Part shown: positions 10,776 to 14,421 of the stretch, in pieces | Layout of the letters: each line of letters begins with the position of its first letter | Position numbering within the stretch: the first letter of the stretch is position 1 | Virus record (IMG/VR): IMGVR_UViG_3300044614_000081 | Coordinates: 1 to 26,374 of that record | Reading direction: 5' to 3' (one strand) | Source of the DNA: a virus | DNA: 26,374 nt | Notes under the pieces: generated by a model | Seen by the model: only the letters and a program-made list of their open reading frames with translations | Databases searched by the model: none | What the model was told of the DNA's origin: nothing | Made by a program: the position numbers and the translations under genes

Positions 10776-11557
10776 CAGTAATATCCCGTGACGCCGAGGC
10801 TGACAGAGCGATAAGCCTTGATGCCCATATTCACCGGTTCAACGTCTCGGTCGGTCCAGACGAAGCCGACATCGGTCGTGATCTTGGAGGGATTGCCAGC
10901 GATGCAGAACGGCTGCAATGGCAGCGTCTTCGCGAACGGCTCGAAGTATGTGTCGTACCAAGCCGTTGTCAGATATTCCCAATCGTAAGATGTAATGACG
11001 GCACGCCTCTTGATGATGCGCCCAAGCCATTGGCCGGTCTCAGAGAACTGTTGCTGTGCTTCGGTGACGCGGTTGAGGTTGAGCGGCCTATGCCCTCCGT
11101 AGATCGGTATTGGCATTTGCAAGGAAACGCCAGCGCGGATGATGCCGATTGCGATGTCCGTGCCATCGTTCACGTTCACCCGCACTTCGCGGACGGTGTA
11201 GAGCGCCCCAGCGTTATTGAAGAACACCGCGATGGTCGAGTTGTCGGTTGGCGAGATCGTCGCACGAGTTGTGTGACCACCTCCGACTGTTGCCGCCGTA
11301 GAGATTGTCACCACCTTGCCAGATAGGTTATGCGCTGCGATAAAAACGCAATCGATAGATACGTCTGCCGCTGCCACAAGAGTCCAGTTATTCGAGCCTG
11401 GCGCAAGCTCCCACCGCTGCGATGTGTAGTCATTGGCAGCATAAGCCGGATTGGTTCCATCACCAGAGACAGTGCCGGTTATCATGTCCCACAAGATGCG
11501 GGCATGGTTTAGCGGCTCATTCGTGGAGACGGTATATCCGGCTGTGCTTATGGTCAC
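10775..11557 (-). CDS. Probable distal tail / minor tail protein
   Basis: A 260-residue protein from a GTG start that overlaps the previous stop (GTGA). The first 130 residues look like a discoidin-type beta domain (YAANDYTSQRWELAPGSNNW, then a long strand-rich region). The second half contains GQWLGRIIKRRAVITSYDW and ends with a strand-rich stretch (KAYRSVSLGVTGYY). It lies directly before the presumed hub, the position where siphoviruses encode the distal tail protein that joins tube to hub. I cannot assign a named family with certainty. Confidence 0.66.
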   Translation of the reverse strand: MTISTAGYTVSTNEPLNHARILWDMITGTVSGDGTNPAYAANDYTSQRWELAPGSNNWTLVAAADVSIDCVFIAAHNLSGKVVTISTAATVGGGHTTRATISPTDNSTIAVFFNNAGALYTVREVRVNVNDGTDIAIGIIRAGVSLQMPIPIYGGHRPLNLNRVTEAQQQFSETGQWLGRIIKRRAVITSYDWEYLTTAWYDTYFEPFAKTLPLQPFCIAGNPSKITTDVGFVWTDRDVEPVNMGIKAYRSVSLGVTGYY

Positions 11558-12159
11558 GGCGTTCCTGCCATTTCAATCCAGTTGGTCCCGTCACAAACAA
11601 GCAATGCCCATGCGCCATCGGTGTTTGGCAAAATAGGAGTGCTAGCTCCTCCGCCTTCGCGCGGGACTACATTGCCAGATGCCGACACAACTGTCTGAGC
11701 CTGTGTGGTAGAAATCACGAGAATGCGGCCTGTATTGCTTGCAGGTGTCGGAAGCGTGAGCGTGTTTGATGACCCCGTGCGGTTGCTTATGATGAATGTC
11801 ACGCCAGCCGCAACCGTGTAATCTGTCGTGACAGTCACCGGAGCAGCAAGGGCAAACGATCCGTTGACTTGCAGCTTCGCCGTTGGCGTTGCCGTGCCGA
11901 TGCCCACGCGATCAGTGGATGCGTCTACGAAAACAAGGTTGGCGTCTGTGTCGCCTTCGATGCGTTGGTCTACATCAGCGCCAGCATCGTTGAAGACGTT
12001 TGCCCCTGCGAATGATGCAGCCGGAACATTCTGAAACAACTCCGCGCGCGTCTGCTTCTTGGTCTCGGGGACGCTTGTGTCCACCACCACATAAAGGTCA
12101 TCCGTGGCCGTGTTGGCCCCGGTCAGTGCTGATAGTGCTGAAATTTTGATGTCAGGCAC
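11554..12159 (-). CDS. Tail-fibre-like structural protein
   Basis: A 201-residue protein from a GTG start with AAGGAG seven bases upstream. It opens MPDIKISALSALTGANTATD, and the middle contains VGIGTATPTAKLQVNGS, a phrase that recurs in trimeric tail fibres and appendage proteins. The rest is beta-rich with many Thr, Val and Ser. It lies between the HNH gene and the distal tail gene. Its ribosome-binding site is inside the last codons of the HNH gene, so the endonuclease must have been inserted, or extended, right up to this start. The exact virion location is unknown. Confidence 0.7.
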   Translation of the reverse strand: MPDIKISALSALTGANTATDDLYVVVDTSVPETKKQTRAELFQNVPAASFAGANVFNDAGADVDQRIEGDTDANLVFVDASTDRVGIGTATPTAKLQVNGSFALAAPVTVTTDYTVAAGVTFIISNRTGSSNTLTLPTPASNTGRILVISTTQAQTVVSASGNVVPREGGGASTPILPNTDGAWALLVCDGTNWIEMAGTP

Positions 12160-12613
12160 AGGCTGTCTCCTTATTTATCTCAAGTGCAACATCAATAGGC
12201 CAGTTAAGGCCGTATATGCGCTGGCGTACCGTGCTTGACTTTAGGTTCTTATATGCGATCCATTTTTCAAGCGTGCGTGTTTCTCCATTTATAGTAATTA
12301 GTCGGCTTGAACGCCTGTTGTTTGCCTGTTCATTCTTGTCTGCCCATTTGCAATTTTCAGGGCTGTATCCGCGATTGTTATCAATTCTCTCTAACCCCAA
12401 TCCAGGCTGATAACTGCCTACCATATCCTGATAGAAATTCTCAAGAATGTTCCATCTTTCACAAAGCGTGATCCCGCGAGCACCATAGTTCTTAAAGTGA
12501 CAATGATCTGGGTTACTTGTGCGGTGCTTCACGCCATACCAAATGTTGCGAAGCCGCTGAAAGTGTGGCCTTTCCAACAACGATGTCGGCAATGCTTTAT
12601 GCGTCCGTCCCAT
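12152..12613 (-). CDS. HNH-type homing endonuclease with C-terminal DNA-binding repeat
   Basis: A 153-residue free-standing endonuclease of the phage/intron HNH type. Recognisable blocks: WYGVKHRTSNPDHCHFKNYG, GARGITLCERW at 44-54, and RIDNNRGYSPENCKWA at 76-91, the core carrying Asp78 and Asn87. After EQANNRR the C-terminus (LITINGETRTLEKWIAYKNL) matches the NUMOD-like DNA-binding repeat found in such enzymes. The gene lies between tape measure and tail-fibre genes. Its ATG overlaps the tape-measure stop by one base (TGATG) and its end overlaps the next start by eight. The coding DNA is clearly more AT-rich than its neighbours, a sign of separate origin. Confidence 0.88.
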   Translation of the reverse strand: MGRTHKALPTSLLERPHFQRLRNIWYGVKHRTSNPDHCHFKNYGARGITLCERWNILENFYQDMVGSYQPGLGLERIDNNRGYSPENCKWADKNEQANNRRSSRLITINGETRTLEKWIAYKNLKSSTVRQRIYGLNWPIDVALEINKETACA

Positions 12614-14421
12614 CAGGCTATCACTCCGCGAATTGTGCCGCCGTTGCGCTGCGTGCTGTTAAGCTGGTCGATGAACTGTCTGGCGAACTTCTCGCCAAAG
12701 CCCATTGGATCATTCATCATTGTAAACTGGAAAGTAGTCGTTGGCGATGCCGCTGCCGGGGCTGCGGATGCACCACCGCCACCGCCTCTACGTCCACCAC
12801 CGCCACCACTACTACCGCCGCCGCCGCCGCCTTCGGAGACTCCCTTAATAGCCGCCACGGCACTCATGCCCTTGGCAAAGACGGCGGCATAATTGGCGAA
12901 CTTCTGAATGGGCGTGATGGCGGTTGGATCATTCATCGCACTAACGGCTGCGCGGATGGTGTCAACGATTGCTTGTGCTGCGGCTGCGGCCTTCGCCACT
13001 TTAAGCAGACGCTTTCCGCCCGCTTGTGCGACTTGAGCCATAGAGCCAAAGAAGGAAGACGCGGCAGTCAGATCACCATCAAGACGTTGAGACTGAATGG
13101 ATGCAAGATCACTTGCGTGTTGCTCCGCACGTTGCAGCATAAGGTCTTTGAACTCTGCATCGAGTTCATCCTTGCCGGTCAAATGCCCGCGAAGCAATTC
13201 CATATCTGCTGCATATTCAGCCTCAAGAATTTCACGCTCAGACATAAAGCCATCGCGGATCGACTCAAGCCTAGCCATATAGAATTCGTCCACCTCTTGC
13301 GATGGTGCAACGCCTGGAACAGTAGAACCGGCACCTTCTCCACCAGCACTGGCGTCACCAGGAAGCCTTGGCGCTTTTGACTTAGACGAAAAGTTTCCAG
13401 CACTTTCGAGCAATGCGGCTGCATCTTCTGGCCTAGCTTGAAAGTTCTTTCGCATGTTTGCAAGGATTTGAGTATTGCGTTCCCACACCTTGCCTACTTG
13501 TTCAGATGATGCTGCCCAAGCATCCATTGCATTTGCGAACTGTCCTTGCTTGATGTATTCAAGCGCAACGCCAGCGGCATTCAACCTTATGGTAAATGCT
13601 TCCCACGCCGATGTCAGGAATTGTACTGTCTCGGCCAGCATGCCGAATGCACCATCAATTAGGTTCGCTATCTTTTCTACATAGTCACCTTCTTCTACGA
13701 ATTTGATGAACCTGTCAGTCAAGTCCTTCATTTTTGGCGCTGACTTTTGCGCGATTGTATTTGCTAAACCAGTGAATAGGCTGGTGATCCTCGTTAGGTT
13801 GTCGTTGAAACCTTCCGCCGCTTTTGAGGTGTTTGTCGAAATCTCAAGACCAAAACGACTAGCTTCTTCGGTCATCTGTGCGAGGCCATCGCGGCCCGCA
13901 TTGAGCATCGGAATCAGATCGGCACCGGAGCGGCCCAATATGGCCATCGCTAACGCTGTTTTGCCAGCGCCGTCTTCCATTCCTGCAAAGCGTTCCGCCA
14001 CATCGAGCAGCACTTCCTCTGTGCCGCGCAGATTGCCTTGTGCATCAGTGACCGAAATGCCAAGAGCCGTGAAGGCTTCGTTCCCGGCTTGCATGTTCTT
14101 GGAAAGCTGACCAAGACCGACTTGCAATTGGCCTAGAGACACATCCGAAAGTTTAGCGGCATACTCTAACCGTGAAAGGCTCTCGGAAGTCATGCCGATC
14201 TTCTGAGCAGTCTTTCCGATTTCATCGGCGAAGTTGATGGCCTGTTTGGTCAGCGCACCAATGGCGACTCCGCCAGCCGCCGCCGCTGTTGCAAAGCCAG
14301 CAAGACCAACGGCAGCAAGCTTCGAGAAGTTCTGTATCTTGCTGCCAGCACTGGCAATGCCCTTGTCGAAGTCATCCGTATTGGCGCTGATCTTGACTTC
14401 GATTCCGCTAACTTGAGCCAT
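12613..14421 (-). CDS. Tail tape measure protein
   Basis: This 602-residue protein sets tail length and passes through the tail tube lumen. The opening AQVSGIEVKISANTDDFDKG, a hydrophobic Ala/Gly segment at about 34-56, and long helical stretches with SLGQLQVGLGQLSKNMQAGN are typical of the phage tape-measure family. Near the end is a Gly-rich run (residues 531-550, bases 12772-12831) made of GGC/GGT codons with two Ser and two Arg, which is a flexible linker. The C-terminal 50 residues (FGEKFARQFIDQLNS) are helical. Its start overlaps the end of the tail-chaperone frame by 14 bases. It is short for the family, which implies a tail on the shorter side for a siphovirus. Confidence 0.93.
   Translation of the reverse strand: MAQVSGIEVKISANTDDFDKGIASAGSKIQNFSKLAAVGLAGFATAAAAGGVAIGALTKQAINFADEIGKTAQKIGMTSESLSRLEYAAKLSDVSLGQLQVGLGQLSKNMQAGNEAFTALGISVTDAQGNLRGTEEVLLDVAERFAGMEDGAGKTALAMAILGRSGADLIPMLNAGRDGLAQMTEEASRFGLEISTNTSKAAEGFNDNLTRITSLFTGLANTIAQKSAPKMKDLTDRFIKFVEEGDYVEKIANLIDGAFGMLAETVQFLTSAWEAFTIRLNAAGVALEYIKQGQFANAMDAWAASSEQVGKVWERNTQILANMRKNFQARPEDAAALLESAGNFSSKSKAPRLPGDASAGGEGAGSTVPGVAPSQEVDEFYMARLESIRDGFMSEREILEAEYAADMELLRGHLTGKDELDAEFKDLMLQRAEQHASDLASIQSQRLDGDLTAASSFFGSMAQVAQAGGKRLLKVAKAAAAAQAIVDTIRAAVSAMNDPTAITPIQKFANYAAVFAKGMSAVAAIKGVSEGGGGGGSSGGGGGRRGGGGGASAAPAAASPTTTFQFTMMNDPMGFGEKFARQFIDQLNSTQRNGGTIRGVIA

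Follow-up and report, generated by a model that had tools for sequence, protein, structure and literature searches.

An endonuclease gene that probably homes into the tape-measure/tail junction of uncultured phages

Organization of the locus

How has a small endonuclease gene come to lie between two phage tail genes with no spacing on either side, and is it a resident of that position or a visitor? We addressed this question for a single stretch of viral DNA, positions 1 to 26,374 of IMG/VR record IMGVR_UViG_3300044614_000081 (26,374 nucleotides, hereafter the window), which we compared with contigs that carry the gene at the same junction (filled alleles) or have the junction alone (empty alleles). 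The features discussed below are:

12152..12613 (-), probable free-standing homing endonuclease ORF, 153 aa, ATG start; phrog_3377, with a putative PacI-like core and a C-terminal tail of putative DNA-binding type
12613..14421 (-), tape-measure gene, upstream, 602 aa, from PHROG profiles
11554..12159 (-), gene downstream of the endonuclease, 201 aa, with a weak likeness to tail fibres; starts with GTG, where empty alleles have ATG
12154..12609 (-), 456 nt found in filled alleles, replacing 2 nt (CC) of empty alleles, from the empty-site comparison
12624..12627 (-), GGAG within the final tape-measure codons, which probably binds the ribosome for the endonuclease gene here and for the downstream gene in empty alleles
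12167..12172 (-), AAGGAG within the final endonuclease codons, a likely new ribosome-binding site serving the downstream gene
12317..12391 (-), stretch encoding residues 75-99, with the signature E75-R76 ... Y83 ... N87 ... Q96 ... N99
12599..12601 (-), codon of H5, the one conserved histidine column of the family (67/77 rows)
12128..12159 (-), candidate minimal co-converted tract, the opening 32 nt of the downstream gene, shared without change by 8 filled alleles and different from empty ones

The tape-measure stop TGA (12615-12613) lends its A to the endonuclease ATG, an overlap of one base, and the endonuclease stop ends at 12152 while the next ORF begins with GTG at 12159, an overlap of eight bases; both overlaps are exactly those that the original prediction had read from the sequence. 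The Shine-Dalgarno sequence that it had placed in the last endonuclease codons is present as AAGGAG at 12172-12167, separated from the GTG by a gap of 7 nt, and the likely ribosome-binding roles of this motif and of the upstream GGAG are read from sequence. Its description of the gene as AT-rich also stands: the GC content is 45.7%, lower than in any other of the 14 ORFs measured, and the window as a whole has 55.4%. The gene is free-standing: it is an ORF of its own, no intron or intein surrounds it, its neighbours are intact, and stop/start overlaps join it to both. A group I intron or an intein can be ruled out, as each neighbour has a stop and a start of its own and an Rfam scan of the window returned no match. 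Among 76 distant relatives surveyed mechanically, the gene was coupled to the downstream start in 37, to the upstream stop in 32 and to both in 21, and a tight two-sided fit is thus not unusual among them.

The identity of the upstream gene as a tape measure, also part of the original prediction, is borne out by its match to phrog_9483 (E = 5.8e-48), and several PHROG profiles agree, the top match, phrog_13338, being one without assigned function. The proposed tail-fibre identity of the downstream gene holds less well: the second match, to the tail fiber protein phrog_9942 (E = 5.8e-5, 59 residues), points that way, but the best match is phrog_5906 (E = 5.4e-8), for which PHROGs gives the function as unknown. 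A host search for tape-measure relatives in genome_contigs confirmed none. Over its final ~130 nt (window 12613-12750), the tape-measure gene has near-identical DNA in most relatives, silent sites included, despite tape-measure bodies that can share just about 30% identity; this conserved 3' end looks like a recombination hinge that would be independent of the endonuclease. The second half of the downstream gene (about 11560-11860) varies between relatives, with conserved DNA on both sides.

Filled and empty alleles at the junction

A search of viral contigs with the tape measure gave 44 loci, 40 of which reach the junction, and scanning for the conserved 3' end of the tape-measure gene yielded 40 stretches, from which three readable contigs (L162, L164, L168) were added. 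Four loci (L012, L020, L042, L043) stayed out of the junction count where the contig or locus ends early, and the contig of L020 was regained as L164. This gives 44 viral contigs, counting the window, of which 10 are filled and 34 keep the empty site intact; an eleventh filled contig (L053) ends inside the endonuclease gene. The original prediction had proposed looking for relatives without the gene, and these 34 are such relatives, with a junction that is otherwise intact. In all 34 the tape-measure stop overlaps the next ATG, as TGATGG (28 contigs), TGATGA (2) or TAATGG (4), and the empty junction sequence includes GGAGTGATAGCCTGATGGCCGACATC. The downstream start codon changes from this ATG in empty alleles to GTG in filled ones. 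The tight fit is not due to chance, since these 34 contigs have exactly this junction with no gene in it. No second copy of the endonuclease gene was found in the 12 empty contigs that were searched whole, most of which are fragments.

The edges of the 456-nt insert (12154..12609) were set against the empty sites and are ambiguous by a few bases. We also looked for a target-site duplication. A likeness to the empty site is seen at the right end of the insert (GACAGCCTGTG), and the anchored score of this end is reached by 12 of 3765 window 20-mers, by 1 of 435 within the gene and by 1 of 12 stretches resembling a Shine-Dalgarno sequence plus start. An unanchored direct repeat at the insert was not significant (529 of 5000 shuffles).

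These counts bear on whether the gene could be a resident with an accessory role, for example in packaging DNA, like the GVE2-type HNH proteins, or in excluding competing phages, rather than a selfish element. By its position the gene would be expressed together with the tail genes, and PMC12724721 places GVE2-like HNH proteins in packaging and describes two other HNH proteins that lower the plaque numbers of a related phage. Against this, the gene is missing from 34 of 44 relatives whose junction is otherwise intact, and it adjoins tail genes here; exclusion, moreover, is not exclusive to an accessory role, because homing also predicts the exclusion of relatives that lack the gene. We regard such a role as very improbable.

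Copy identity and flanking tracts

The eight complete copies of the gene differ from one another by at most one base in 462 nt, the sole variable site being T282G (N94K), and two partial copies (408 nt in L025, 62 nt in L022) match the window fully over their length. Filled alleles fall into three tape-measure types, which share only 27-34% mutual identity over residues 60-400; each of them also has empty members, and both T282G alleles are found in two of the three. With near-identical copies behind such different tape measures, the gene seems to copy itself from phage to phage.

Flanking identity was compared in pairs of contigs with different tape-measure types, the right flank being counted from after the start codon. 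The perfect right-flank run has a median of 676 nt in filled pairs and is at least 300 nt long in 11 of 19, pairs that are not independent of each other and rest on few independent comparisons. Among 416 empty-empty pairs the median is 5 nt, the maximum 116 nt, and none reaches 300 nt. The filled contigs are few, and their metagenome numbers differ, yet they may stem from a single sampling site. Measured against the window, the right tract ends after 30 nt in L021, 32 nt in L026, 676 nt in L023 and 916 nt in L024, and it extends for at least 754 nt in L033, where the contig ends; L022 and L025 have no right flank. Right end points that vary in this way, from 30 to 916 nt, are a probable co-conversion signature of homing. 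The first 32 nt of the downstream gene are common to all eight filled alleles that have a right flank, and 8 of the first 21 bases of this gene, 5 of them silent, differ between filled alleles and the common empty sequence.

The left flank gives a modest signal: the median run in filled pairs is 117 nt, which is also their maximum, and 10 of 19 have at least 100 nt, compared to a median of 51 nt, a maximum of 181 nt and at least 100 nt in 38 of 416 for empty pairs, so that the filled maximum stays within the empty one. It is here that passive hitch-hiking has to be weighed, in which the junction would be a conserved recombination hinge of mosaic phages and a recent, possibly dead gene would have been moved by ordinary module swapping. 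Two facts agree with such swapping: conservation of the final ~130 nt across otherwise different tape-measure genes extends to empty phages, and the longest left run of empty pairs exceeds that of filled ones. On the right flank, however, contigs of different types share no more than 116 nt when empty and up to 916 nt when filled, and a gene with at most one change in 462 nt and with its conserved residues intact does not look dead. We consider hitch-hiking unlikely, though less remote than an accessory role.

The tracts of four filled contigs (L023, L024, L033, L053) take in the region 300-600 nt downstream, where empty alleles are 52-91% identical to the window in 100-nt bins of DNA. Because a tract carried along in this way can reach into the variable part of the tail gene, the enzyme may spread tail variants. 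The same four contigs carry the window's version of the variable half of the downstream gene. To the right of the endonuclease gene, L024 and L053 are perfectly identical over 3078 nt, a longer run than either shares with the window.

Homing as the best explanation

We conclude that the gene very probably encodes a free-standing homing endonuclease, and that, inserted at the conserved tape-measure/tail junction, it is probably spreading by homing. In outline this is what the original prediction had proposed, and it was right to do so in that a near-identical gene stands behind diverged tape measures and has right ends that vary; the same population patterns point to the junction as the likely cleavage target. 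In a mixed infection, the enzyme would cut the conserved junction between tape-measure and tail gene of a phage that lacks the gene, and repair from the carrier would copy the gene together with a variable stretch of the downstream flank. The insertion would enter exactly at the stop/start overlap, where the endonuclease could use the ribosome-binding site in the last codons of the tape measure and would bring its own (AAGGAG) for the next gene. Entry at the exact overlap, use of the tape-measure site and supply of a new one would together explain why both tail genes are unbroken.

Homing endonucleases of the free-standing kind are already known in other viruses; what is added here is population evidence for homing and the correction of the canonical HNH histidine to arginine, described below. 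In this population of uncultured phages, homing can be read from sequence alone, through empty and filled sites, tract ends and two alleles of the enzyme.

The protein family and its conserved residues

The window protein belongs to phrog_3377, annotated 'HNH endonuclease' in PHROGs (E = 1.4e-44), and the match covers residues 19-147, most of the protein. Searches of Pfam (to E = 1) and NCBIfam with the window protein returned no match, and a Pfam scan of 13 family members gave weak, inconsistent lines, the best being HTH_psq at 0.0014. By tblastn, 964 phage records contain a match, which in 962 of them is less than 60% identical, and 12 phage homologues that we aligned have 37-46% identity to the window protein.

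Conservation was assessed in an alignment (A3) of the window protein with 76 of 79 distant loci, 77 rows in all, each row being a match range; L080 (internal stop), L082 and L125 (near-duplicates by table rows) and L067 (a copy of the window gene) were left out. Five residues, W54, F60, R76, Y83 and N87, are invariant in all 77 rows, and Q96 and N99 are kept in 73 and 76. The column that corresponds to the catalytic D74-H75 of I-HmuI reads D/E75-R76, with arginine at the histidine position in 77 of 77 rows. The name 'HNH' proposed for the gene is thus loose: PHROGs applies it to phrog_3377, but the canonical histidine is an arginine throughout, and the common label covers a family with arginine in the catalytic histidine's place. 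For the same reason, loss of the HNH active-site residues, which the original prediction had named as counter-evidence, does not apply as worded.

An initial statement that the family has no conserved histidine proved wrong. Most A3 rows start after the region of H5, so that A3 missed it; whole ORFs, aligned for all 77 rows, show one histidine column, H5, upstream of the domain, kept in 67 rows with gaps in 6, and the family is not histidine-free. The pattern count, by comparison, leaves out L124 and L139, which have no anchor. Cysteines are conserved at positions 32 (72/77), 51 (73/77) and 88 (76/77), the window protein having T32, and as a guess H5 could form a metal site with C32, C51 and C88.

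Predicted structure and likeness to PacI and I-HmuI

The predicted structure of the window protein is confident (pLDDT 92.3). A Foldseek search against the PDB returned no significant match, with a PacI-type fold at E = 1.5, and one against viral predicted structures returned 108 matches at E values up to 0.001, with Twort ORF076 first. Sequence searches of the PDB gave nothing credible beyond a weak line for I-HmuI.

In a second structural comparison (VIA), PacI (PDB codes 3LDY and 3M7K) ranked first of 111 aligned chains, with a Z-score of 6.1 that is below the safe level of the tool, and it aligned with residues 7-105 of the model (85 residues, r.m.s.d. = 3.5). The spacing of its arginine, tyrosine (+7) and asparagine (+11) is the same as that of R76, Y83 and N87. 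A PacI-type motif DR-x-D-x4-Y-x3-N is present in the family, the window protein having E for D at position 75, and an ungapped profile match of the motif (GLERIDNNRGYSPENCKWAD / GVDRSDSFEGYSPQNARLAC) has an E value of 7.4e-5 in a one-to-one comparison with a PacI fragment chosen by hand. PacI uses a tyrosine-based catalytic mechanism and has zinc-binding cysteine motifs. It differs from the window protein in the CxxC that follows its motif, which the window protein does not have, and in lacking the extra C-terminal tail of the latter.

The likeness to I-HmuI (PDB code 1U3E) consists of two weak signals, a profile alignment (E = 0.67) in the region of its DH...N motif and a fold match to the C-terminal tail of the window protein (Z = 2.1, 40 residues). 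According to PMC12724721, the catalytic residues of I-HmuI are D74-H75-N96; in the window family this D-H-N becomes D/E-R-N, without the canonical HNH histidine. By analogy with PacI, the core may use a metal- and tyrosine-dependent chemistry, and the C-terminal tail is predicted to bind DNA. The arginine in the place of histidine makes for a clear biochemical prediction, namely chemistry by Tyr83 and Arg76, along with the role, if any, of H5, and a tractable one, with a protein of 153 residues and a target of a few dozen bases.

A wider reading is tentative, and we would put it somewhat short of an even chance: that this large phage family without a Pfam entry is a class of homing enzymes in which the HNH histidine has become arginine, with PacI-like Arg/Tyr/Asn chemistry and an I-HmuI-like DNA-binding tail, and that it acts as an ongoing gene drive, exchanging the variable portion of the downstream tail protein among phages whose tape measures are strongly diverged.

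Comparison with other phage endonucleases

Phage members of the 'HNH endonuclease' groups phrog_3377 and phrog_374 include Twort ORF076, BcepMigl gp71 and Moonbeam 129, and several relatives have an N-terminal extension that the window protein lacks. A tape measure was named beside the homologue's gene in none of 11 annotated phage neighbourhoods. The Heg proteins of phage T5 were considered as kin and set aside: all eight read as [DE]H-x-[DN] and are without a match to the family profile.

PacI-like HNHE were reported as rare in Skunavirus phages (2 of 268) in PMC12724721, which also describes one PacI-like phage enzyme that showed no significant activity when assayed. As described in PMC3706429, the Cluster J mycobacteriophages contain a free-standing HNH gene, Courthouse 46, whose precise insertion can be seen against an empty site, and another nuclease gene that sits after the tape measure. 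The Skunavirus and Cluster J genes are phage genes with PacI among their best profile matches (PMC12724721, PMC3706429). Thibault gp31, which lies beside the tape measure, is on the opposite strand and annotated as endonuclease VII; it has no match to the profile of the window family and was set aside as kin.

Homing genes at exchange boundaries have been described, as has the IPA-HNH class of ICP1-like phages, whose members are often near essential genes and include ICP1 ORF59 (Gp59) as a named representative (PMC10448857). ICP1 ORF59 matches the A3 profile (E = 3.2e-8) and is a distant relative of the window family, its aligned motif having K in place of R and Y in place of N. An AP2 domain behind the nuclease domain, a trait of IPA-HNH, was not found in the window protein by Pfam up to E = 1.

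Two further observations concern distant homologues. At the locus L080 (2501-2863), an in-frame stop interrupts the conserved QxxN region, which perhaps marks a decaying copy. The C-terminal part of L054 weakly matches phrog_201, which PHROGs labels leukocidin; the label stems from an ORF-50 gene of the phage named PVL and is a naming error rather than the sign of a toxin.
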